Source: a virus. From it: 30,214 bases of DNA. The translations under genes and the position numbers were made by a program. The notes beneath the pieces were generated by a model, which was not told the origin of the DNA, ran no database searches, and was given only the letters and a program-made list of their open reading frames with translations. The stretch lies in IMG/VR virus record IMGVR_UViG_3300043436_001179, positions 1 through 30,214 of that record; one strand, 5' to 3'. Below are positions 1-10,884 of this stretch, piece by piece; the stretch's first letter is position 1, and every line of letters starts with the position of its first letter.

Positions 1-512
1 AAGTCTTGGTAATCTTCTGATATGTCACTGAATTTTGATCGTATAGCCTTCATATCTTTACACAGATAGTCTTTGTTTATTCCTGTTGCCTCTTGAATAT
101 CGCGGTAACTCTTTTCATGTTTAACGTTAATTGTTATCAAATGTTGCTCGTATTCATCAAGCTTCTTTATCTGTTCTTGTGTAGCGTAAAAAATCTCCGT
201 TTGCTTTTGAATATACTCGACAACGCAAGGTGGCTCTGGTAAGTTTCTGATTGCTTCAATGTCAACCTTTTTGATTTTATCCTGTTGCCTTTTGAATTGA
301 ATGAAGATGTTTTGTAATGTCTTGTAAACGTATGGAATGTTCACTGAGTTTTTATTTAGCACCTTTTCCGTTTTACCGTATTTGTGCATGAGCAAGTACA
401 TTTCTTGCACTAAGTCCTCGCAGTAATCCGATTCGCCAAACGTCTTAATAATTCGCACCCACATATCATGATGCTCGGCTACTTTATTCAAAATCAATTC
501 TTTTTCGCTCAT
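1..512 (-). CDS. Phage-encoded sigma-70-like RNA polymerase sigma factor (3' part missing)
   Basis: 170 residues are readable before the window ends, so the C-terminus is missing. Residues 29-46 (around CEDLVQEMYLLMHKYG) match the sigma region 2 helix with the DLVQE signature. Residues 121-161 (around KSYRDIQEATGINKDYL) look like the region 4 helix-turn-helix that reads the upstream promoter element. Small sigma-70/ECF-like proteins are known in Bacteroidetes phages, and this one presumably redirects host RNA polymerase to phage promoters. The ATG at 510-512 is the first start after a strong terminator at 552-580, so the gene seems to have its own transcription start. The -10-like sequence upstream (TATATTAG on the minus strand) is only a near match to the Bacteroidetes box. 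A different phage HTH regulator is possible but less likely. Confidence 0.72.
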   Translation of the reverse strand, partial: MSEKELILNKVAEHHDMWVRIIKTFGESDYCEDLVQEMYLLMHKYGKTEKVLNKNSVNIPYVYKTLQNIFIQFKRQQDKIKKVDIEAIRNLPEPPCVVEYIQKQTEIFYATQEQIKKLDEYEQHLITINVKHEKSYRDIQEATGINKDYLCKDMKAIRSKFSDISEDYQD

Positions 513-2073: not shown

Positions 2074-2715
2074 TTACCTACCGTAAGGCTTCAACAATTC
2101 TTTAAATTGGCAATTTTCGATTAAGTCTTTAACTATCAGATCTCTTTCTTTTGCCGCGCTTTCAATTCGCTCAAGTATTTTGCTAACTACAGCTTGGTCA
2201 TATTTTACCACTATTTCATGTGTCAATTCTTGACCATTCCAAACAACGTAATTGAAAAAATGGCATTGCTCGGAGTTGGTGCATTTCATTTGTAGTTGCA
2301 TTTGATAGTAGTATTTTTTATCAATTGCATCCGTTCCCTTTTCAATCAGTTCAAAAAACTTCTCAGGACGTGGACATTTGATTTCTAAAACTGCATTTTG
2401 TCCAACTAATCCATCTGGAGATGCGCCCGAATTTAAACCTAAAGGGAAAAACGATGCTTTCTCAACTTCGATAAACTCTTTTGCCATGCGTTCCTTGAAT
2501 ATATCAAATGCACGTTCCTCTTGTTCAATACCCCTTTTCATATCCCAAGTTTCAACATTCCATGATTCATCACGTCCAAATACAATCTCTTGCGCTTTTT
2601 TGCGTGCGAGTGATAAACCCGTTTCACCAAGTGCTTTTGCACCCATTAGAGCGTGAATCTCGGACGCTGTAAAACGTCCAAGTCTCTGCTCATACCATTC
2701 ATTACTTCTTTGCAT
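2074..2715 (-). CDS. YqaJ-family phage recombination exonuclease (lambda Exo-like)
   Basis: 213 residues with the PD-(D/E)XK nuclease layout of YqaJ/lambda exonuclease proteins. It has an N-terminal RLGRFTASEIHALMG (residues 11-25), a GIEQEERAFDIF helix (62-73), the catalytic core GASPDGLVG...LEIKCP (D101, E111, K113) and the late YYYQMQLQM motif (136-143). It degrades one strand of duplex ends to give 3' single strands that the partner annealing protein uses. The start overlaps the end of the ERF gene by 14 nt, so the two are translationally coupled as a two-component recombinase. The pair is transcribed from the promoter module at 3254-3323. Confidence 0.9.
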   Translation of the reverse strand: MQRSNEWYEQRLGRFTASEIHALMGAKALGETGLSLARKKAQEIVFGRDESWNVETWDMKRGIEQEERAFDIFKERMAKEFIEVEKASFFPLGLNSGASPDGLVGQNAVLEIKCPRPEKFFELIEKGTDAIDKKYYYQMQLQMKCTNSEQCHFFNYVVWNGQELTHEIVVKYDQAVVSKILERIESAAKERDLIVKDLIENCQFKELLKPYGR

Positions 2716-3232
2716 AGTCTAAGTATTTTTTTTCAACATCTGGTGTAATTGTGTACGCTTGTTTGATTCGGTCAATAGTCGCACCCGCTGCTTTTGCTTT
2801 TTCAAAATTAGCCTCGGTAAATAACGGTTTTTCCTTTACTGGTTGTGGTTGTTGTTTAGGTAGTTGTTCACCTTGCGCATCGTTATCTTTGTCGGTTACA
2901 AGTCCAAGCATTGAACTAATCGCATAACGTCTAAGGTAAGTAATAGCCGAACCCATTACTTGAAATTCATTCATCCCTTTTAACTGAACGTCTTGCGGTA
3001 TGTTCAATGTGGATTCGATAAATTCACCACTTTCTACGTGGAAAACGATTGTCTTTAACACGTCACCCTCAATCAATTGGGTAAACCCTAACCCGTTCGA
3101 CTTCATTAGTGGGTTGATAACCTCAAAAATGCGTGGTAAGTCTGCGTATTTATACCCATACGCTTGGGTGTCTTTAAAAATTACAGGCACTTCTTGCTGA
3201 AAAGTAGCCAATGATTTGAATAGATTTTTCAT
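2702..3232 (-). CDS. ERF-family single-strand annealing protein
   Basis: 176 residues. It matches the ERF superfamily: an N-terminal domain with YGYKYADLPRIFEVINPL, NGLGFTQL (46-53), an HVESGE strand (65-70) and the hallmark GSAITYLRRYAISSMLGLV (94-112) followed by acidic DKDNDAQ. The C-terminus after a QPQP linker is a small helical domain. ERF proteins anneal complementary single strands during phage recombination. It overlaps the YqaJ exonuclease downstream. The start at 3230-3232 follows an A-rich leader and a TAAATTTG promoter box 22 nt upstream. It is the first gene after the activator-type element at 3291-3323. Confidence 0.88.
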   Translation of the reverse strand: MKNLFKSLATFQQEVPVIFKDTQAYGYKYADLPRIFEVINPLMKSNGLGFTQLIEGDVLKTIVFHVESGEFIESTLNIPQDVQLKGMNEFQVMGSAITYLRRYAISSMLGLVTDKDNDAQGEQLPKQQPQPVKEKPLFTEANFEKAKAAGATIDRIKQAYTITPDVEKKYLDYAKK

Positions 3233-3253
3233 AGTTATTTGTTTTTATTTCCT

Positions 3254-3323
3254 CAAATTTACTCATTTCCCTACGTTCATGGCTCTATATTGTGATGAAC
3301 GGTTGGTAGGTTTGATGAGTGGT
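3254..3323 (-). promoter_or_regulatory. Matched promoter module A (recombination genes)
   Basis: The -7 box TAAATTTG (minus; 3254-3261, plus-strand block caaatttact) lacks a TTG at -33. Further blocks follow upstream: cgttc (3274-3278), tgtgatgaacggt (3291-3303) and ttgatgagtggt (3312-3323). The same blocks recur at 10699-10767 with spacing equal to within 1 nt. The two tgatga half-sites start 20 bp apart, suggesting an activator binding on one face of the helix. A cgttcat/atgaacg inverted repeat (3274-3280, 3295-3301) adds symmetry. The distal block touches the stop codon of the upstream gene. Confidence 0.75.
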
Positions 3324-3679
3324 TATTTGCCAAATTCAGCCTCATAATTTCGCACCACTCTACGCAATTGCTCATTCACTTGCAATTGAACAATTAACTT
3401 GCCTTCCAAATCCATTGCCCGACTGCGAGCAACTTCCAATTCTCGTTGCAATTCTTCGTACTGATTGTACGTTAACGCTAAATTTTCAATTTCGTGCGTA
3501 CAGGTTTGTACAAAAGAATGGCTGTTTTTCGCTTCTGCTTGCTTTCTAAGCGACTTTAGCCAAAGAATGGTACTTGCTATTGACCGCTTGCCTATTAGTT
3601 GCTCTAAACGCTTTATTTGCTCTCTCTTTACTTCGTCACTACAATTGCGAAGTACTTCTGCTTTGCTTGCTTCAAACAT
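3323..3679 (-). CDS. Hypothetical coiled-coil protein of the replication operon
   Basis: 118 residues, strongly helical. Residues about 80-112 (EELQRELEVARSRAMDLEGK onward) have heptad-like spacing that predicts a coiled coil. The N-terminal half is basic (VKREQIKRLEQLIGKR). No family is recognised. The gene follows the helicase-like ATPase by 10 nt and ends at the upstream edge of promoter module A, so it is the last gene of that operon. A role as a small DNA-replication or packaging accessory would be a guess from position only. Confidence 0.6.
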   Translation of the reverse strand: MFEASKAEVLRNCSDEVKREQIKRLEQLIGKRSIASTILWLKSLRKQAEAKNSHSFVQTCTHEIENLALTYNQYEELQRELEVARSRAMDLEGKLIVQLQVNEQLRRVVRNYEAEFGK

Positions 3680-3689
3680 AACTTAATTT

Positions 3690-4664
3690 TTAAAATGGTA
3701 AATCGTTCTCAAAATTCGACTGAAATCTGTTTAACGATGTGTTTACTTGTTGCTTATTCATTGGCGCATCCTTTGGACTTGCGTAAATCTTTTCAATATA
3801 GTTTCCTTTCAATTCGTTTTGGTAATAGACCAACTTGTCTAAATCGAAATGCAGAACACAATCCCCAACACTACCACATGACCTCGGCTTAATCTTATTG
3901 AAAAATATCTGCACTTGGTTTGTGGTTATATCTTCACGGTGAACCGTTACCATACACTTCCCGGAGTTAAACCATTCTGAACCACCTTTCAGATCGTAGG
4001 GTGTAGGTGCTAATCTTTTCCCTTGTACCTTTTCCGTTAGTTTCGGGTGAATGATTGTGTGCAAATGTAAGTTATTATCTTCTGCAATTTGGTTTCTGTA
4101 AGGTAAAACAACCTCCAAATAAGTTGCATAACCTCCAAACTCGTTGTATGGGTGTGATAAATCCTTCCAAGAATCAATACAAGCAGTTTCTAATCCTTCG
4201 CTTTTTTTCAATTCAACTGCAAAATCCCAAAATTGAAACGGTGTCATCTTTGCTTTCACGTTTGACTTGGTCAAAATCTTGAAATGGTGCGTTATCCAAT
4301 TAATCTCGTTTGCAATTTCAGCATCAGTAATCGCATTGTGACTGTCTGGGTTAAAACTTTTACCTGTCTTTTTGTGGATTAGGTCTGCAATAATCTCCAC
4401 GTTGTTCCCGACATCAGGAAAATATACCAAGTGCTTCCAACCGTAGTACTTCGATGTGTTCATCAGCAACTCCATAAGCACCTGTGTTTTCCCTGACATT
4501 GGAAATCCTGTCCAATCTGTACACGTTCCAAGCATCATTGAATAGTGCTTGTCTATGTCTGCAAATCCAAGGTACTGCCCTTTCGTGTTGTAATTATCTC
4601 TGTACTTTCTCAGCTTCAAATCGACATCACTTGCTTTGGTTATTTCAAATCCTTCTATTGCCAT
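3690..4664 (-). CDS. RecA-fold replicative helicase-like ATPase (DnaB/RepA type)
   Basis: 324 residues. It has a Walker A at 53-60 (GFPMSGKT), a Walker B strand ending in D164 (ETACIDSW), and a sensor-like strand LHLHTIIHPKL near 199-209. The order and spacing fit the RecA-like domain of phage replicative helicases in the DnaB/Twinkle superfamily. The N-terminal primase or DnaB-N domain is absent, so it is a stand-alone motor. The last 25 residues (ending NFENDLPF) resemble the acidic Phe-terminated tail of single-strand binding proteins, which recruit partners. It overlaps the DnaD/O-like gene by 10 nt, consistent with a loader-helicase pair. A RadA/RecA-like recombination ATPase is the alternative. 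Confidence 0.75.
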   Translation of the reverse strand: MAIEGFEITKASDVDLKLRKYRDNYNTKGQYLGFADIDKHYSMMLGTCTDWTGFPMSGKTQVLMELLMNTSKYYGWKHLVYFPDVGNNVEIIADLIHKKTGKSFNPDSHNAITDAEIANEINWITHHFKILTKSNVKAKMTPFQFWDFAVELKKSEGLETACIDSWKDLSHPYNEFGGYATYLEVVLPYRNQIAEDNNLHLHTIIHPKLTEKVQGKRLAPTPYDLKGGSEWFNSGKCMVTVHREDITTNQVQIFFNKIKPRSCGSVGDCVLHFDLDKLVYYQNELKGNYIEKIYASPKDAPMNKQQVNTSLNRFQSNFENDLPF

Positions 4665-5350
4665 GCTGCTTTGAATTTTTGTTTGTCGTTTTCTTCTTGT
4701 TTCAGTCCGTATGTGGCATCAGTCTTTTGTCTTCTACGCATCCAATTCAAAAAAGTGAGATATGCACTTTGATTATCTGAAATCAACTTTTTGTAGTTGT
4801 GCATTGATTCCAATACTTCGGCTGTGTGTTTAGCGTTGTATTCTTGCTTTACTTTTTCAGCTTGTTCAATTGTGAACGGCTCATTCATTTGGTTAACTCT
4901 TGGGGCGTTCTTTTCAATCCACAAAATAAGACTGTGACTTTTTTCGCTACTGTCTTCTTGTATATTATCTACGTTAGTAGATATATATACTTCTTTAGTT
5001 GTTGCTTTTTTTGGTGACTTTTGCCTGCGGTTTTGTTTTGTCTCAAGTTGCAATTCTTCCCATTTGACAAGGGTTACAGCCTGATGTTTGTTTGTCGTTT
5101 TGCGTGTTATTTGATTGTCGTGTTCCAAACAAGATAACGAACGTCTCACTTGACTAACTGTCAAACCCGTTGCTGTTGCTAGCTTTTCGTAAGATGTAAT
5201 CAATTCACCTGCTTTAATTTCAACACCCCTCCAAATCTTTGGTTCATGGTTGACAGAAACAAGCAAATAAATTAATAGTCGTGTCGTGTTGTGGTCATCC
5301 CAAAACTCCCAATCGACTATTGAACGGAACAATTTAATGTAACCAGACAT
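4655..5350 (-). CDS. Phage replication initiation / helicase-loader-like protein (DnaD/O type)
   Basis: 231 residues. The N-terminus (GYIKLFRSIVDWEFWDDHNT) followed by RLLIYLLVSVNH and ELITSYEKLATATGLTVSQVRRSL is the winged-helix domain common to phage replication proteins. A basic linker (TKQNRRQKSPKKATTK) and a helical C-terminal half ending FLNWMRRRQK follow. This domain order matches DnaD-like or lambda O-like initiators that bind the origin and load helicase. It sits directly before, and overlaps, the helicase-like ATPase. If the protein binds within its own gene, the AT-rich linker region near 4950-5010 would be the obvious origin candidate, but I see no clear iterons. Confidence 0.72.
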   Translation of the reverse strand: MSGYIKLFRSIVDWEFWDDHNTTRLLIYLLVSVNHEPKIWRGVEIKAGELITSYEKLATATGLTVSQVRRSLSCLEHDNQITRKTTNKHQAVTLVKWEELQLETKQNRRQKSPKKATTKEVYISTNVDNIQEDSSEKSHSLILWIEKNAPRVNQMNEPFTIEQAEKVKQEYNAKHTAEVLESMHNYKKLISDNQSAYLTFLNWMRRRQKTDATYGLKQEENDKQKFKAAWQ

Positions 5351-5352
5351 GG

Positions 5353-5535
5353 CTAATTCATTTTACTTTTTAACATTTGTAAACAATTTATCAACTCGTC
5401 AATATCGCTTTTGTGCATTTCTATTGATAACTCTTCTTCATCATAACCAACCATTAAGAGGTTGATAGTGCTTTCAGAAATCAAGTTAATAACTAAGTGT
5501 TGGTCACTTCTGCAATCGTTAATAATGTATTTCAT
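5353..5535 (-). CDS. Small hypothetical protein downstream of the structured RNA
   Basis: 60 residues from the ATG at 5533-5535 (MKYIINDCRSDQHLV). A longer frame up to 5580 would run through the stem of the structured RNA and is unlikely. The C-terminus is an amphipathic helix (DIDELINCLQMLKSKMN). No family is recognised. It starts 14 nt after the U-tract of the RNA at 5549-5641, so its translation and that of the replication genes behind it may depend on read-through of that hairpin. It ends 2 nt before the DnaD/O-like gene. Confidence 0.6.
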   Translation of the reverse strand: MKYIINDCRSDQHLVINLISESTINLLMVGYDEEELSIEMHKSDIDELINCLQMLKSKMN

Positions 5536-5548
5536 AATTTTGGGTATT

Positions 5549-5641
5549 AAAAAACCCTTGTAATCCATCAGGGGTCTCACGTCTGACTTCTTACAAGGGT
5601 TGTTAATAATTCCTTTGGTTCACTTGTTTGAGACCCGAACC
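5549..5641 (-). ncRNA. Compact structured RNA: two hairpins with complementary loops and a terminator
   Basis: Starting near 5641 the minus strand forms P1, GGTTC/GAACC (5641-5637, 5621-5617), whose 15-nt loop begins GGGTCTCA (5636-5629). It then forms P2, an exact 11-bp stem AACCCTTGTAA/TTACAAGGGTT (5601-5591, 5563-5553), capped by a 4-bp TCAG/CTGA helix. The 11-nt apical loop of P2 contains TGAGACCC (5579-5572), the exact complement of the P1 loop. P2 runs into a short U-tract, so it is also terminator-like. The RNA follows a good promoter (5647-5674) whose predicted start falls at the base of P1. I do not recognise an Rfam family. It may be a free small RNA or a leader attenuating the replication operon. 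Confidence 0.65.
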
Positions 5642-5646
5642 GTATG

Positions 5647-5674
5647 CAAATATACTAAAAAATCTGAATATCAA
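5647..5674 (-). promoter_or_regulatory. Bacteroidetes-type promoter of the structured RNA
   Basis: TATATTTG (5654-5647 on the minus strand) fits the TAnnTTTG -7 box and a TTG lies at 5674-5672, 17 nt upstream. The start site would be near 5641, the first base of hairpin P1. It overlaps the end of the RusA-like gene. Confidence 0.72.
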
Positions 5675-5972
5675 TAAACTCGCATCCTTTTTGCACAATT
5701 TCTTTTGTTAACACAATCTTGTTAATGTACCTATCGTCAATCCCGTACTTTTTCACGATGCAGTCCAAGGATTGTTTGACGGCATTGTCAAGGTCGCTAA
5801 GTTTAGAACTGAACCCGAAGTGTAAGTGAACTTCCGAAATGCTTTGTAACGTCAAGTTAGGCAATAATAAAAGCATATCTCGCTGAAACTTTACATATGC
5901 AGGGGTCTTGAATCTTTTTCCTTGCCATGCGTTGTTGGTCGATAGCGGTTTAATCGGTAGCCTCGTTTTCAT
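5655..5972 (-). CDS. RusA-like Holliday junction resolvase
   Basis: 105 residues from ATG 5970-5972 (MKTRLPIKPLSTNNAW). The N-terminal PxKPLSxNxAW...GKRFKTPAY and the central SDLDNAVKQSLDCI, then YGIDDRYINKI, are the RusA family signature. The aspartates of the LDN and IDD stretches are the metal-binding positions, and the spacing is as usual for about 110-130 residue phage RusA proteins. It resolves recombination or replication intermediates before packaging. The start overlaps the upstream gene (5950) by 23 nt. The promoter for the downstream RNA lies at its 3' end. Confidence 0.82.
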   Translation of the reverse strand: MKTRLPIKPLSTNNAWQGKRFKTPAYVKFQRDMLLLLPNLTLQSISEVHLHFGFSSKLSDLDNAVKQSLDCIVKKYGIDDRYINKIVLTKEIVQKGCEFIDIQIF

Positions 5973-6204
5973 CCTCTGTAAAATTAGTTTCAATCCATTG
6001 CCTGAACGCTCGCTGAATGTCTATCTGTTGTTCATGAACTTGTGATTCCGTTCCTTTCAAAATCCACTCATCGAATGAGCGTATTTCCGCAATGATTCTA
6101 TTCGCTCTTTTCTTTGCTTCAAAGCGAAGCTCTGCATCTTCTAAGAAGTCAGCAACCACTGGACCAAGTGCCACGGCTGCCAAAAGTTTCCCGTTTTTTG
6201 TCAT
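5950..6204 (-). CDS. Small hypothetical protein before the resolvase
   Basis: 84 residues, mostly helical. The N-terminus is hydrophobic (LLAAVALGPVVADFL) and may be a weak membrane segment or an amphipathic helix. The rest is charged (ELRFEAKKRANRIIAEIRSF) and ends acidic (TEDENEATD). No family is recognised. It overlaps the RusA-like gene by 23 nt and lies 1 nt after the preceding gene, so it belongs to a tightly packed operon. Confidence 0.55.
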   Translation of the reverse strand: MTKNGKLLAAVALGPVVADFLEDAELRFEAKKRANRIIAEIRSFDEWILKGTESQVHEQQIDIQRAFRQWIETNFTEDENEATD

Positions 6205-6205
6205 T

Positions 6206-6388
6206 TCAAAATAGTTTTAGTTGATAATCCACATTTTCAAGCGAGAAAGGCAGTTCAGCGTTCTTTACAATCTCAATGTGATGACAGCAAATAGTAGCTT
6301 CAAACTTCTTTCCTTTGTCCTCGCAAAGTACGTCCATCATTGGAAAGTCAAAGACGTAATACACCTCGCTAATTATCTCGATTATCAT
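6206..6388 (-). CDS. Small hypothetical protein
   Basis: 60 residues, rich in beta-type hydrophobics (MIIEIISEVYYVFDFPMMDV) with a CC-H cluster (ATICCHHIEI) near the middle. No family is recognised. The start overlaps the stop of the upstream gene as ATGA (6385-6388), typical of coupled translation. Confidence 0.5.
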   Translation of the reverse strand: MIIEIISEVYYVFDFPMMDVLCEDKGKKFEATICCHHIEIVKNAELPFSLENVDYQLKLF

Positions 6389-6645
6389 AGTTTTGATTCA
6401 TACACCTCGCAGAAGTCACCATTGATGAAGTCAACTCGGTGCGTGTAGTTTGCTAATTTCAGAACATAGTTAATGTGTTCTAAGTCGATGCCGCTTTGAT
6501 TCATTGCACGTGAATACAAGTTGTTGTAGTCCTCGTTATGCACCCGGCACAACTCCGCAAAATCAATCCCCTTTCTGGATAGCATGATGAGCAAGTAGTT
6601 TCTTACTCTTCTTTTCAAAGATTCGTCTGTTATTCTCCCTTGCAT
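6385..6645 (-). CDS. Small putative DNA-binding protein, paralogue of the next gene upstream
   Basis: 86 residues. After a basic N-terminus (ESLKRRVRNYLLIMLSRKG) comes IDFAELCRVHNEDYNNLYSRA...IDLEHINYVLKLAN, a helix-turn-helix-like pattern. It aligns with the C-terminal half of the protein at 6630-7073: both share G-x-(N/D)-(L/F)-x-(D/E)-(F/L)-C-x-x-H-x-x-x-Y-N, then Y, then I-(N/D)-(L/I)-(D/E)-x-(I/M)-N. I therefore read the two as tandem paralogues that could bind DNA and regulate phage promoters. The genes overlap by 16 nt. The family name is unknown to me; XRE-like folds are a loose comparison only. Confidence 0.55.
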   Translation of the reverse strand: MQGRITDESLKRRVRNYLLIMLSRKGIDFAELCRVHNEDYNNLYSRAMNQSGIDLEHINYVLKLANYTHRVDFINGDFCEVYESKL

Positions 6646-7073
6646 ATTATAATTTTTAGCCGTTTGTTTTCATCTACCAAGCTAATCAACTCGTTCATCT
6701 CGTCTATGTTGATATTGTAGCGTGACAGCTTTTGATAGACCGTGTTGTAGTTCATGTCATGCTTAGCGCAAAAGTCCTTTAAATTCGTTCCATTGTCGTT
6801 CAGTAACCGCATGAACTCGCGGAGTAGTTGTTTTTTCATTTGCTCAGTATTAAAATGGTTTGCTTTTTTGCCACGAAGTCCAACACAATGAACTACATCT
6901 TGTTTCATTTCGATTTTAATAATTTCATCGAACAGATCACTTGATACATTCTTATTCGTTCCAACCCCATTTTTCGGGATGTACTTTACTTTTGTATATT
7001 CGCTTAGCCAATTCGGAGAAAACACCGTTGGTTTGATTCCGCGGCTTGCGTTTAGTTTGTCAATTGTTCTCAT
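6630..7073 (-). CDS. Putative HTH protein with N-terminal extension, paralogue of 6385-6645
   Basis: 147 residues. Residues 1-75 are a basic region without a recognised domain (TIDKLNASRGIKPTVFSPNW). Residues about 80-147 (QLLREFMRLLNDNGTNLKDF, then CAKHDMNYNTVYQKLSRYNI) mirror the whole of the downstream protein, with the conserved FC..HD.NYN..Y and I-D-E-M-N positions. A helix-turn-helix regulatory or DNA-organising role is plausible, and the pair may have arisen by duplication. The gene overlaps both neighbours (7060, 6645). Confidence 0.55.
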   Translation of the reverse strand: MRTIDKLNASRGIKPTVFSPNWLSEYTKVKYIPKNGVGTNKNVSSDLFDEIIKIEMKQDVVHCVGLRGKKANHFNTEQMKKQLLREFMRLLNDNGTNLKDFCAKHDMNYNTVYQKLSRYNINIDEMNELISLVDENKRLKIIICKGE

Positions 7074-7512
7074 CGTCTTTCAGTTTTAGTTCCTCGCCTG
7101 TGAGTGAAAACACAAGATTCTGTAATTGATGTACGTATTTAATTACACGTAAAGACACTGTTTCCCTATCTCCAATAAGATCATATTCATCTAAGGCAAT
7201 GTTAAATCCTTTTGAATTAATATGACCTCTTAAATAAGTGTCATCAGATAACTTTAGTCTAAAGACACCGTAATTTTCAAACCCAAACCTAAGCAACCAT
7301 TCTTCTGTGAGTGGGATTGGTTGTAAATCTTCATAAACTTCAATTTCTTCTTCTGTTTTTGTCATTGATTCAAGCAGGAAATCCCAGCCTTCACCAAGTG
7401 AAGAAGTTGAATCAACAGCAAGTATTTTAACAGTGTACAATTTCGTACTTCCATCTTCTTGTTCAACTTCTCCGTTGACAAAATTCCCAATTCTCAATTC
7501 ATTTGCTTTCAT
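7060..7512 (-). CDS. Conserved Bacteroidetes phage protein of unknown function
   Basis: 150 residues from ATG 7510-7512 (MKANELRIGNFVNGEV). The opening ANELRIGN, the central PIPLTEEWLLRFGFE and the closing VHQLQNLVFSLTGEELKL form a pattern I know from many small proteins encoded by Bacteroidetes phages and integrated elements, always without an assigned function. The first part looks like a small beta-barrel and the middle like a short helix. The upstream ATG four codons earlier is possible, but MKANELRIGN is the usual N-terminus. It overlaps the membrane-protein gene upstream by 14 nt. Confidence 0.7.
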   Translation of the reverse strand: MKANELRIGNFVNGEVEQEDGSTKLYTVKILAVDSTSSLGEGWDFLLESMTKTEEEIEVYEDLQPIPLTEEWLLRFGFENYGVFRLKLSDDTYLRGHINSKGFNIALDEYDLIGDRETVSLRVIKYVHQLQNLVFSLTGEELKLKDDENN

Positions 7513-7705
7513 TTCGCTTTTCAATTAATCGTTCAACATCATGTAATGATTCGGGAATCAGAGTCTCATATATGATACTCTGTCGCATTGTTTCAACACC
7601 GCTATCGAATCCTAAATCGTATCCGTTATTGTGTCCCGCTACGTAAAACATACCACACGCACCAATCAGTGCGAAGAGGTATATCAGTTGTTTAAATCGT
7701 CTCAT
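7499..7705 (-). CDS. Small single-pass membrane protein
   Basis: 68 residues. A basic start (MRRFKQL) is followed by a hydrophobic segment at about 8-24 (IYLFALIGACGMFYVAG) and a charged outer or cytoplasmic tail ending IEKRNESK. No family is recognised. The start overlaps the stop of the preceding 51-residue ORF as ATGA. Its role could be in host takeover at the membrane, but only the topology is supported. Confidence 0.55.
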   Translation of the reverse strand: MRRFKQLIYLFALIGACGMFYVAGHNNGYDLGFDSGVETMRQSIIYETLIPESLHDVERLIEKRNESK

Positions 7706-7857
7706 TTTCGTGTGATGTAATAAGGTTCAACATTGTATTCTTTCTTGAAGTTTGCCAAGGCATCTTCGATTGATTCGGCAAAAACCGTAATTCCTGTTAG
7801 AAGGTCTAAGCCTTGCTCATCCTTTCCAATGAGCCAACAAATGTGGTAAGTTTTCAT
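7702..7857 (-). CDS. 51-residue hypothetical protein
   Basis: Reads MKTYHICWLIGKDEQGL onward to YYITRK and stops at TGA 7704-7702. The ATG at 7857-7855 is the only good start. The middle (TVFAESIEDALANFKKEY) fits a beta-alpha unit, common in small phage proteins that begin with an 'MKxYxIxW' strand. It overlaps the next gene by 4 nt (ATGA), which supports translation. Function unknown. Confidence 0.6.
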   Translation of the reverse strand: MKTYHICWLIGKDEQGLDLLTGITVFAESIEDALANFKKEYNVEPYYITRK

Positions 7858-7874
7858 TCTGTTTATGTTTTAGT

Positions 7875-8312
7875 TTATATTCCGTTTTCTCTGTATGCGT
7901 GGTATCTGTCGCAATCGTAATCAGCTTCGTAGGATTCGCGTTGCGCTTCTAAGAAATCCTCTTCTAATTCGTCACCTACCTTGTGATTAACTCGGTTGTG
8001 AATCATGGTACGCACTGTTTCAAGTAGGTAATCAGGTAGCACCAAGTAATCGCCAAAACCATCCTCTTTAAGTATTTGGTCAATATCGCAGTACAAGCCA
8101 TCAGAATCGAACTTTACATTGCCTGTTACTTGAATCAGTTTGCCTGTAATGATTTCAATTTCGTAGTGAAATTCTGCTGTATTGCAATAGATTTCGGTTA
8201 TTCTTTTCGGCTGTCTACCGCCTTCGTAGATTTCCTCAATAACACCCTCATAAGAAGTGAGTGCGTTAAGTTGCTTGATAGCTTTGTCTAATGTTTGGTC
8301 TAACTTGTTCAT
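7875..8312 (-). CDS. Hypothetical acidic protein
   Basis: 145 residues. The N-terminus is helical (NKLDQTLDKAIKQLNALTSY), the middle is beta-rich (EFHYEIEIITGKLIQVTGNV) and the C-terminus is highly acidic and tyrosine-rich (LEEDFLEAQRESYEADYDCD). No family is recognised. The strongly acidic tail could mimic DNA or contact a basic partner; this is only a suggestion. Its leader (CAAAACAACATGAACAA) is nearly identical to that of the next gene upstream. Confidence 0.6.
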   Translation of the reverse strand: MNKLDQTLDKAIKQLNALTSYEGVIEEIYEGGRQPKRITEIYCNTAEFHYEIEIITGKLIQVTGNVKFDSDGLYCDIDQILKEDGFGDYLVLPDYLLETVRTMIHNRVNHKVGDELEEDFLEAQRESYEADYDCDRYHAYRENGI

Positions 8313-8333
8313 GTTGTTTTGTGTTTTTTGATT

Positions 8334-8522
8334 TTAAATAAACATTGCCCAAACACCATTCTCGTAAAATAGAGAATTTGATTTAGTTACCTCTTCACAT
8401 AATAACTCCATGTGTTTAGCAACTTTGTTTTGCTGTTCTATATCCCATAAAGCATAATCCTTAGACTTTACAGATAAATTATCAAAAGTGACTAACTTGT
8501 TTTTTTCTTGTAAATTGTTCAT
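8334..8522 (-). CDS. Small hypothetical protein
   Basis: 62 residues. The sequence has a helical middle (DYALWDIEQQNKVAKHMELL) and an aromatic end (NGVWAMFI). No family is recognised. It shares its translation leader (CAAAACAACATGAACAA) with the 7875-8312 gene, which supports expression of both. A GC-rich hairpin without U-tract lies just upstream, near 8540-8562. Confidence 0.5.
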   Translation of the reverse strand: MNNLQEKNKLVTFDNLSVKSKDYALWDIEQQNKVAKHMELLCEEVTKSNSLFYENGVWAMFI

Positions 8523-8571
8523 GTTGTTTTGTTTTAGTGCGCGTTACCGAGTCGCGCCCCTCGTTTTTTAA

Positions 8572-8826
8572 TTACTTACTTAACATTGAAACACCATCCC
8601 AAATTTTGTTGTTTACTGCAACTAAGATGTTATTTCCGTCTGTGTATTTGATTACTGAAAAACCTTTTCTTTCAAAGCTGTTGATTCTTAATTGAATGTC
8701 AAGGATTGAGTAAGGCTGTTCGTTAAAGAATCGTTTTCCAAACTCTTGTGTGTTCTTCAACATTTCTAACATTTCAGTTGTGACTTCTACTGTGTTAGCT
8801 GTTTTGATGTCTTTTAAAGTTTCCAT
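8572..8826 (-). CDS. Small hypothetical protein, first gene of the second module
   Basis: 84 residues from ATG 8824-8826 (METLKDIKTANTVEVTTEML). Earlier in-frame ATGs at 8853 and 8895 lie at or before the predicted transcription start and are rejected. The C-terminal half (ILDIQLRINSFERKGFSVIK) looks like an alpha/beta domain. No family is recognised. It is the first gene after the promoter at 8857-8886 and so probably an early-expressed gene; first early genes are often host-directed. Confidence 0.6.
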   Translation of the reverse strand: METLKDIKTANTVEVTTEMLEMLKNTQEFGKRFFNEQPYSILDIQLRINSFERKGFSVIKYTDGNNILVAVNNKIWDGVSMLSK

Positions 8827-8856
8827 TTTGTTCTGTTTTTGTTCGTTTGACATACA

Positions 8857-8886
8857 CAAATATAGAACTAATTTTGTTACATACAA
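8857..8886 (-). promoter_or_regulatory. Bacteroidetes-type promoter of the early/replication module
   Basis: TATATTTG on the minus strand (8864-8857) fits the TAnnTTTG box and a TTG lies at 8886-8884, 19 nt upstream. The predicted start falls about 25 nt before the ATG at 8826. The promoter stands just downstream of the late-operon terminator. Confidence 0.75.
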
Positions 8887-8905
8887 CAATTGCATGAAAA
8901 AAAAT

Positions 8906-8937
8906 AAAAAAAAATAGGAAGCGGTTAAACTTCCTAT
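8906..8937 (-). terminator. Strong rho-independent terminator after the endolysin gene
   Basis: On the minus strand ATAGGAAG (8937-8930) pairs with CTTCCTAT (8921-8914) around an 8-nt loop and is followed by nine T and a second T run. The stretch 8938-9039 between it and the endolysin holds no convincing gene. Confidence 0.88.
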
Positions 8938-9039
8938 CCTTGCAATGTGTCTAAGGCACTTAAATCAGAGGTGCATCTCGTTAATCGGTTGTTTCATTTG
9001 CATTGTCGACTTTAGCCACCGAAACAGTCATTGCGTTGT

Positions 9040-9522
9040 TTATTCTGGGTAAACAAATCCCAAAAGGCGCAAACCATTTGTGACCCGCCAAGCCTCTTTG
9101 CTTAACACCCTGTGACGTTGTGCAACTATTACACCATCTCTACCACCTCTCTCTGTTGTGTTTCCCTCAACCGTTGTGTAGGTCATGCCATCGACAGCGG
9201 TAACGACTCCGATATGTCCTGTGGTTTGACGTTTTCCCGATCTGAAAGTTGCCCAAACAACTACCGCACCCTCTTTAGGTTCGCTATGCCAATTACGTGC
9301 TTTGGTTGCTTTCTCAATGATACGTCTTGAAGATGCGCTTAACAGGCTAATGTTCTGACCCGCTTCCTTCCATACAAGCATGGCAAAGAATCCACACCAT
9401 GGCGCACCATCATAGAACCCAACACCTCGCATTTTCTTGTCGAATGATTCATCAATGAATCCCATGTTCCCGCGTTTCTCTTTTTGTCCGATGTAGGACT
9501 CCGCTATTTCTTTAATTGTCAT
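9040..9522 (-). CDS. CHAP-domain endolysin (peptidoglycan amidase/endopeptidase)
   Basis: 160 residues forming a single CHAP domain. The catalytic Cys is C43 in APWCGFF, the His is H103 in TTGHIGVV, and the acidic or Asn third position lies in VEGNT (E119, N121). The intervening GAVVVWATF strand is typical. It lacks a signal peptide and a separate cell-wall-binding domain, so release must depend on a holin; two candidates lie at 12380-12857. It is the last gene before a strong terminator and reads as the lysis enzyme. A virion-associated hydrolase is less likely given its position. Confidence 0.85.
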   Translation of the reverse strand: MTIKEIAESYIGQKEKRGNMGFIDESFDKKMRGVGFYDGAPWCGFFAMLVWKEAGQNISLLSASSRRIIEKATKARNWHSEPKEGAVVVWATFRSGKRQTTGHIGVVTAVDGMTYTTVEGNTTERGGRDGVIVAQRHRVLSKEAWRVTNGLRLLGFVYPE

Positions 9523-9532
9523 ATCTTTTTAT

Positions 9533-9847
9533 TTACGAATTTAAGCATTTTGCCCGATAGTAGTCTTCAAAGTATTGGTGTTCGTAAACCGTGCCATCTT
9601 TGCCCTCAATGACCTTTCTGAATAAGTGCAAGTTGCTGAATAGTAGCTGTACCTCTTTGTGGCATAGTTCCCTTGTCAACAGTCCACGTCTGTCGCAGTA
9701 CCAAATGCTTTCAAACACCTTATCCCTCTCATCGTCAAATCTTGCGCCAATGAAGTGTTGAACCACCGCAAATGGTTTCTTTTCGGTTAGTAAGTCCTTT
9801 AGCGATTTGAACCCTAACATTGTCCTAACTTCCTTTTTCTTTCTCAT
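9533..9847 (-). CDS. Hypothetical protein upstream of the endolysin
   Basis: 104 residues with a basic N-terminus (MRKKKEVRTMLGFKSLKDLL) and a helix-rich body (DDERDKVFESIWYCDRRGLL). No family is recognised. The start overlaps the upstream stop as ATGA, which favours the long start over the internal ATG at 9820. It precedes the endolysin by 10 nt, so a lysis or late regulatory role is possible but unproven. Confidence 0.55.
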   Translation of the reverse strand: MRKKKEVRTMLGFKSLKDLLTEKKPFAVVQHFIGARFDDERDKVFESIWYCDRRGLLTRELCHKEVQLLFSNLHLFRKVIEGKDGTVYEHQYFEDYYRAKCLNS

Positions 9848-10107
9848 AGCTTTTCGATTTCGGTTTTAACGTCTTCCCAGAATTTTCTTTCTTCTCTTTC
9901 ATTATGACCAACCACGTAAAAATGTAGTAAAGACTCTATCTCATCCACCGCAATTAGTGCGCATTGTTTGGCTCTTGGAATATTTGCAAATAAATCAATA
10001 TTACAAGATAACTCACCCGATTTTGTAGATGCCGTTGGTATTACCTTTGGAGGCATTTGTTTTGAAAAACTTCTTACCAACGCTATCGCCTTATCTCTCG
10101 CTGTCAT
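9844..10107 (-). CDS. Hypothetical protein of the lysis-side operon
   Basis: 87 residues. An N-terminal helix (MTARDKAIALVRSFSKQM) is followed by a Pro/Ser/Thr-rich linker, then CALIAVDEIESLLHFYVVGH and a charged tail. The 'ARDKAxxLVxxF...AKQCALIAVDEI' layout recurs in small Bacteroidetes phage proteins of unknown function. ATGA overlaps on both sides (10107/10104 and 9847/9844) show tight coupling. Confidence 0.62.
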   Translation of the reverse strand: MTARDKAIALVRSFSKQMPPKVIPTASTKSGELSCNIDLFANIPRAKQCALIAVDEIESLLHFYVVGHNEREERKFWEDVKTEIEKL

Positions 10108-10214
10108 TCCTCAAATCTTTTAGTTAGTTCATCCTCTTTTCTGTCAAGTGACTTAATCGCCCTCGCAAGGGTAATTAGCGCAATCATTCCGAATGCTAAT
10201 AGTGCTACTTCCAT
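10104..10214 (-). CDS. 36-residue single-pass membrane peptide
   Basis: Reads MEVALLAFGMIALITLARAI then a charged tail (KSLDRKEDELTKRFEE). The ATG at 10212-10214 is chosen because upstream codons in frame belong to the leader of another gene. A short hydrophobic helix plus a charged cytoplasmic tail, in the operon that ends with the endolysin, would fit a tiny holin, antiholin or pinholin-type peptide, but nothing specific proves it. Confidence 0.5.
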   Translation of the reverse strand: MEVALLAFGMIALITLARAIKSLDRKEDELTKRFEE

Positions 10215-10218
10215 TTTG

Positions 10219-10452
10219 TTAATGTTTAAAGGTTTCGTTGTAGTAATTACTTCCGTGATAAATAGCGTTGCCTTCTTGTACACAAGCACCATTATTATAA
10301 CCAATCTCAAATGCTTCCTTAATCTGATCCTTTTCCATCTGTTTGGATTGTTTGATTATATCGATAACCCATTGAGGCAAATCATGACCTATTAGTTTTT
10401 GCTTGAATACTTCTACCAACCACTGAACGGCTGTCGTTTGTTTTTCTTCCAT
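10219..10452 (-). CDS. Conserved small phage protein (MEEKQTTAVQWL type)
   Basis: 77 residues from ATG 10450-10452. The opening MEEKQTTAVQWLVEVFKQ and later KQMEKDQIKEAFEIGYNNG match a small family frequent in Bacteroidetes phages and prophages, with no known function. The longer frame to 10548 overlaps the coding part of the upstream gene and is rejected. It ends 4 nt before the membrane peptide gene. Confidence 0.65.
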   Translation of the reverse strand: MEEKQTTAVQWLVEVFKQKLIGHDLPQWVIDIIKQSKQMEKDQIKEAFEIGYNNGACVQEGNAIYHGSNYYNETFKH

Positions 10453-10462
10453 ATTGTTAAGT

Positions 10463-10675
10463 TTAAAGGTTTTCGTATGTGCTAACAAGTAGACTGTCAA
10501 CGTAGCATATTGCATCAATGTGTTTCTCATCGTTTGAATCGTCGCCAAACCAATCGAACGCTTCGCTATTCGTTGTGTGAGCCTTTACATCAACTCCGTT
10601 AACTATTCCTGTAACGATATATTGACCGTAACCGTTACCTCTTTTAATGTTTTGATTTGTGATTGTTGTGTTCAT
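10463..10675 (-). CDS. Small hypothetical protein, first gene after promoter module B
   Basis: 70 residues; the N-terminus TTITNQNIKRGNGYGQYIVT and the VNGVDVKAHTTNSEAFDWFG stretch predict a small beta-sheet protein. No family is recognised. It starts 24 nt downstream of the TACGTTTG box of the module at 10699-10767 and is therefore the lead gene of an operon that runs to the endolysin. A leader AAAAACAAAAATT precedes the ATG. Confidence 0.6.
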   Translation of the reverse strand: MNTTITNQNIKRGNGYGQYIVTGIVNGVDVKAHTTNSEAFDWFGDDSNDEKHIDAICYVDSLLVSTYENL

Positions 10676-10698
10676 AATTTTTGTTTTTGATTACATGA

Positions 10699-10767
10699 CA
10701 AACGTACTTAATAAAGTCGTTCGATTTCCGTTAATGTGATGAGCGGTAAATAAACTTGATGAGTGGT
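10699..10767 (-). promoter_or_regulatory. Matched promoter module B (lysis-side genes)
   Basis: The -7 box TACGTTTG (minus; 10706-10699) has no TTG at -33. Upstream are cgttc (10718-10722), tgtgatgagcggt (10735-10747) and ttgatgagtggt (10756-10767) on the plus strand. Spacer lengths are 9, 12 and 8 nt, against 10, 12 and 8 nt in module A at 3254-3323. The two tgatga half-sites start 20 bp apart. Confidence 0.75.
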
Positions 10768-10800: not shown

Positions 10801-10811
10801 AGCGTAGTTTG

Positions 10812-10884
10812 TTGCGAGGGCAGGACTCGAACCTGCGACCTTTTGGTTATGAGCCAAACGAGCTACCAACCGCTCCACCTCACG
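10812..10884 (-). tRNA. Initiator-type tRNA-Met (CAT anticodon)
   Basis: A complete 73-nt cloverleaf on the minus strand. The acceptor is CGTGAGG with CCTCGCA, leaving a C1-A72 mismatch. The D arm is GAGC/GCTC, the anticodon stem TTTGG/CCAAA with loop CTCATAA, the variable loop AGGTC and the T arm GCAGG-TTCGAGT-CCTGC; the discriminator is A. The C1xA72 mismatch and purine-11/pyrimidine-24 pair (A-U) are hallmarks of bacterial initiator tRNA, and the CAT anticodon agrees. One of the three G-C pairs usual in the initiator anticodon stem (29-41) is U-A here. No 3' CCA is encoded, as is often the case in this phylum. It has its own promoter and terminator. Confidence 0.92.

Follow-up and report, generated by a model that had tools for sequence, protein, structure and literature searches.

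A 30,214-nucleotide stretch of viral DNA (IMG/VR virus record IMGVR_UViG_3300043436_001179, positions 1 to 30,214; hereafter the window) carries two copies of a promoter module, one ahead of recombination genes and one ahead of a series of small open reading frames (ORFs). Based on sequence comparisons, we propose that these phage promoters are activated by a host regulator with a LytTR DNA-binding domain, belonging to a two-component system of histidine kinase (HK) and LytTR response regulator (RR), a reading to which we assign a probability of roughly three in four. The module contains a tandem repeat that resembles published LytTR binding sites and that also heads HK-LytTR operons in bacterial chromosomes, whereas searches of the window and of 50 viral records bearing the motif detected no LytTR domain. 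In this virus of Bacteroidota-type bacteria, the expression of recombination, replication and small early genes is probably triggered by a sensing system of the host.

Architecture and spread of the promoter module

The minus strand carries all genes of the module region, and it is on this strand that the modules act, heading the ORFs 2702-3232 and 10463-10675; the plus-strand reading of the initial annotation had to be reversed. Written 5'->3' on the minus strand, the module consists of ACCACTCATCA-N9-ACCG[T/C]TCATCACA, approximately 30 bp, TAAATTTG or TACGTTTG, and then ATG. The repeat unit is a tandem 11-bp ACC[AG][CT]TCATCA with a period of exactly 20 bp, and a TAnnTTTG -7 box is located 41-42 bp downstream, with the start codon next. 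In module 1, the distal repeat A (ACCACTCATCA, 3313..3323, minus strand) is found 20 bp from the proximal repeat B (ACCGTTCATCA, 3293..3303, minus strand), and the TA of the -7 box (TAAATTTG, 3254..3261, minus strand) lies 42 bp from the start of repeat B. Module 2 repeats this arrangement on the same strand with repeat A (ACCACTCATCA, 10757..10767), repeat B (ACCGCTCATCA, 10737..10747) and a -7 box (TACGTTTG, 10699..10706) whose TA lies 41 bp from the start of repeat B. Assuming a start 4-5 nt beyond the -7 box (PMC6847099), transcription is predicted to begin at ~3248-3249 and ~10693-10694, respectively. The strict repeat pair has exactly two matches in the window and none in 100 dinucleotide shuffles, while the next-best pairs within the window show six mismatches each; the distal and proximal repeats of both modules, all identified by this pattern match, are also conserved in relatives.

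The module had been described as five blocks, and all of them are present at the positions given: caaannTact (3254-3263 and 10699-10708), cgttc (3274-3278 and 10718-10722), tgtgatgaRcggt (3291-3303 and 10735-10747) and ttgatgagtggt (3312-3323 and 10756-10767). The spacers of 10/9, 12/12 and 8/8 nt and the 20-bp distance between the half-sites were likewise verified, but the five blocks reduce to three. The 'cgttc' block (GAACG; strand unassigned) is judged incidental, because it is lost in orthologous promoters that keep both repeats and the -7 box: the same position reads GAATC in L111, and GGATT or GGATG in the relatives of copy 2 (L202, L231, L107, L066 and L079). More generally, close relatives retain both repeats and the -7 box, while the intervening DNA varies.

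The Bacteroidetes sigma-ABfr promoter consensus comprises a -33 TTTG and a -7 TAnnTTTG, with 4-5 nt between the -7 element and the start (PMC6847099). Both window modules share with these promoters the -7 element and its distance to the predicted start. They differ in the -33 TTTG element, which is absent from both and in whose place a putative upstream activator site is found.

Beyond the window, the strict pair was detected in 109 IMG/VR stretches. The reversed pattern, used as a control on the same collection, gave no match, and a spacing of 21 bp gave 4 matches versus 109 at 20 bp. Two groups among the 109 stretches (the L008 and L030 groups) are unrelated repeats; nearly all remaining matches combine the pair, the set gap, the -7 box and a start codon. 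When periods of 15-25 bp were allowed, 200/201 relaxed sites still showed 20 bp. Among 51 non-redundant sites, 37 boxes of the form TAnnTT[T/C]G were found; measured from the proximal repeat, 36 of them are placed at 41-43 bp (26), 51-52 bp (2) or 61-63 bp (8). These distances step by about one helical turn, as required if an activator is to contact RNA polymerase. Most sites of the 52/62-bp class have a TTTGG stretch near -33, most of the 42-bp class do not, and in L043 a third, degenerate repeat turns 62 into 42+20. The contig G015 harbors seven sites and a further copy at its end; only a short end repeat was found there, and the contig was treated as a fragment. The modules, in which tandem sites precede a -7 box without a -33 TTG, almost certainly represent an activator-type promoter class, in agreement with the activator dependence postulated initially. 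Several promoters of the 42-bp class (L053, L076, L084, L097) additionally contain, in the stretch that separates the repeats from the -7 box, the half-site in inverted orientation (GAACGGT or GGACGGT).

The site in bacterial chromosomes and its resemblance to LytTR sites

A scan of approximately 85,000 species genomes recovered the strict pair at 12 loci, 7 of which adjoin genes for a kinase (His_kinase, PF06580) and for a response regulator of the LytTR type (five Saprospiraceae, Massilia and Pseudoduganella). Pfam analysis of four Saprospiraceae regulators returned Response_reg (PF00072) and LytTR (PF04397) for all of them; the others were identified by tblastn with the same proteins. The Saprospiraceae loci follow the order site, secreted alpha/beta hydrolase, kinase, regulator. 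In all 18 Saprospiraceae hydrolase-HK-LytTR operons examined, the pair is located upstream with 0-6 mismatches in 22, each pair beats 200/200 shuffles, and TAnnTT is found at exactly 42 bp (18/18). Twelve of these operons are those that carry the hydrolase among further operons found through RR homology alone and not through the motif. This linkage of site and operon is what autoregulation of a two-component operon would be expected to produce. Hydrolase homologues across the phylum were also considered as carriers of the site and rejected, since homologues elsewhere in the sampled phylum have neither HK/RR nor the site, which occurs only where HK-LytTR follows. Genomic linkage of the site to a LytTR regulator gene is a feature of the chromosomes, and in the phages no such gene was found. 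In the two betaproteobacterial genera, Massilia and Pseudoduganella, the repeat pair lies inside the HK-LytTR locus, upstream of a small ORF (L188:3287-3317 and L191:1239-1269).

LytTR sites have been described as repeats of 9-11 nt separated by spacers of 11-13 nt (PMC4847170). The repeats analyzed here conform to this format with a 9-nt core, ACC[AG][CT]TCAT, and an 11-nt spacer, and the core matches the published sites of YehT, for which the oligonucleotide ACCGCTTA-N13-ACCACTCA was reported (PMC4847170), and AlgR, CCGTTCGTC (PMC4064291). The Escherichia coli YehT/BtsR site upstream of yjiY/btsT likewise consists of direct repeats, whose unit is close to ACC[AG][CT]TCA and which are spaced by some two turns of the helix. 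Its period, however, is 21 bp compared with 20 bp in the phage modules, and E. coli holds regulator and site in one genome, whereas the phages carry the site without the regulator. For AlgR of Pseudomonas aeruginosa, the core is nearly identical to CCGTTCATC (PMC4064291), but AlgR sites are not necessarily tandem and may be hundreds of bp off, in contrast to the strict geometry of the phage sites. The repeat pair is very likely a LytTR-type site.

Host or phage regulator

The regulator of the phage modules is likely encoded by the host. The sequences themselves show the sites, their spacing and conservation, their association with host operons and the lack of a detectable phage LytTR; that a regulator binds and activates, which host protein it is and what signal it answers, we infer along the following lines. 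The module would be a sigma-ABfr-type promoter with a weak or absent -33 element, for which a LytTR response-regulator site made of tandem direct repeats substitutes. Two regulator protomers would occupy ACC[AG][CT]TCAT-N11-ACC[AG][CT]TCAT, two helical turns apart and with the end of the proximal repeat near -44, and would recruit host RNA polymerase. The regulator itself would be the RR of a host HK-LytTR operon like the hydrolase-HK-RR operon of Saprospiraceae, which is headed by the same site at the same spacing. An active host kinase would then switch on the annealing/exonuclease operon (2702-3232 and on) as well as the operon starting at 10675.

As regulators, the initial annotation had suggested two kinds of phage proteins, a sigma factor and HTH-like (helix-turn-helix-like) proteins, and both were rejected because they are not co-distributed with the sites. 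The sigma-factor homologue of the window (3..512, minus strand, running to the contig edge; phrog_1740, E 3e-7) belongs to a family present in 7/27 site-bearing contigs and absent from G015 with its seven sites. Since the sigma gene is not found wherever the promoter class occurs, and the same promoter exists in chromosomes with an ordinary -7 box, the modules do not behave as promoters of a phage sigma factor. BLAST relatives of the HTH-like protein at 6385-6645 are confined to G005, G022 and G034, and those of 6630-7073 to the same three and G010, all of them close kin of the window. Identical promoters ahead of host LytTR operons point to a host response regulator instead of these candidates. 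A phage-encoded LytTR protein was rejected as well: in addition to the negative searches of the window and of the 50 motif-bearing viral records, a profile built from host LytTR regulators reached a best E of only 0.24, and weak matches at relaxed thresholds were at chance level. No protein family common to all site-bearing contigs was found, and in G015 no transcription factor was recognised by Pfam. With no phage LytTR, no co-distributed candidate and no common family found, a host regulator is the simplest reading.

Among the alternatives, an activator encoded by the phage survives best, although we regard it as rather unlikely; it could be HTH-like, a sigma factor or a small protein that escaped recognition, with a specificity that coincides with that of the host LytTR regulator or was taken over from it. 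It would account for phage contigs that can hold several near-consensus sites, as G015 does, where chromosomes usually hold one, and the window does code for a homologue of sigma factors and for a protein with weak HTH resemblance; however, the distribution of these families, the lack of any LytTR-like phage protein even at relaxed thresholds, and a host operon promoter that shares repeats, period and 42-bp spacing with the phage modules all argue against it. It is improbable that a host LytTR regulator binds the repeats as a repressor site or a titrating decoy. Several high-consensus sites per phage genome would titrate well, but a -7 box at a fixed distance in phase with the helix, together with a poor -33 region in the 42-bp class, is expected of activation, and a decoy would not need a promoter. 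A role of the repeats as iterons for replication or as sites of recombination is highly improbable, even though tandem short repeats do occur near recombination and replication genes: each site has only 2-3 repeats, the sites are scattered, a -7 box follows at set distances with a start codon close behind it, and host two-component operons are headed by the same element.

Several points nevertheless weigh against activation by a host LytTR regulator. LytTR regulators are said to have no single common consensus (PMC4847170), so that sequence resemblance alone would be weak. RR orthologues were present in only 16/150 Saprospiraceae at the cut-off used, which implies that the phage hosts must carry this RR or another LytTR regulator of equivalent function. 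Phage contigs are far richer in strict sites than chromosomes, as might fit a phage-borne regulator, and all phage records are possibly incomplete. Moreover, two phage-like contigs binned in one Saprospiraceae metagenome-assembled genome (L319 and L320), whose kinship with the site-bearing phages extends to replication and structural genes, lack the site, although their presence there is weak support for the host reading. When a host link was sought through DNA matches to Saprospiraceae, the listed matches of the window DNA correspond to its tRNA region, and a second phage query gave a few weak matches in addition to phage-like contigs in one metagenome-assembled genome.

The closest documented case is the PhoBR system of cyanophage hosts, in which the host response regulator PhoB binds phage genes including those for DNA polymerase and a UvsX-like recombinase (PMC10976474). 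As in that case, phage genes here carry putative sites for a host response regulator: the site is shared with a host LytTR operon, and no LytTR was found in 51 viral records, whose contigs are possibly incomplete. The two cases differ in regulator family, host and context, with PhoB, cyanobacteria and phosphate on one side and a predicted LytTR type in Bacteroidota on the other; the modules described here also span many phage lineages with a strict architecture. No report of LytTR-controlled phage promoters was found in the open-licence literature.

Genes behind the sites and implications

The first gene of module 1 encodes an Erf-type single-strand annealing protein (2702..3232, minus strand; PHROG and Pfam ERF), with a RecE/YqaJ-type exonuclease (2074-2715; PHROG and Pfam YqaJ) downstream of it; the PHROG matches of this pair are phrog_2324/phrog_155. 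The earlier assignment of recombination genes to one copy of the module is supported. Other phages place different first genes behind the site: Erf in G017 and G023, replication-initiation-like genes in G020 and G027, many small ORFs without assigned function and, in G022 and G034, a RecT annealing protein in place of Erf behind the same promoter. This RecT (L230:1203-2024; G022, G034) is not homologous to the window Erf, indicating a gene swap with the promoter kept.

Absence of the blocks ahead of the same genes in relatives had been named as a refuting outcome, and this check did not refute the initial interpretation. The site is kept in the close relatives L111, L112, G022 and G034, although 48 more distant Erf loci (L113-L160) showed no site anywhere in the fetched DNA. 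With the site in 2 of 50 Erf-carrying loci examined (L111 and L112), the element follows phage lineage and not the gene, and a site tied to Erf was rejected on the basis of these distant loci and the replacement of Erf by RecT.

The first ORF of module 2 (10463..10675, minus strand) encodes 70 aa without a known family and lies upstream of small ORFs and a CHAP-domain endolysin (9040-9522). A lone tRNA-Met (CAT) gene (10811-10884) immediately precedes module 2 on this strand, and its DNA is ~81-91% identical to stretches in many Saprospiraceae genomes. In an annotated phage collection, relatives of the window were limited to tRNA matches and chance-level matches. At 880-2070 of the window, small ORFs (969-1175, 1373-1678 and perhaps 1724-1999) lie inside or overlap inverted repeats (948-963/1198-1213, 1356-1379/1695-1718 and 1723-1737/1878-1892), some with GTTAG-like ends. 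This layout is reminiscent of gene cassettes of the integron type, or of some other array of cassettes in a phage.

More tentatively, and at somewhat less than an even chance in our estimation, a broad set of Bacteroidota phages may have placed their early program of recombination, replication and small genes under a single LytTR system of the host, gated by the host sensor kinase. Its promoter would be portable, with the gene behind it swapped (Erf in the window, RecT in G022/G034), and would recur at host kinase-LytTR loci up to Betaproteobacteria. If true, this would be a second, independent case of host two-component control of phage genes, involving another regulator family and another phylum, and it would reveal a very strict promoter grammar common to many phage lineages. 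The named host operon (hydrolase-HK-LytTR) makes phage timing testable by gene deletion. The DNA tag itself, ACC[AG][CT]TCATCA twice, 20 bp apart and 42 bp before TAnnTTTG, could serve to annotate promoters of uncultivated phages and may hint at the hosts they are able to use.

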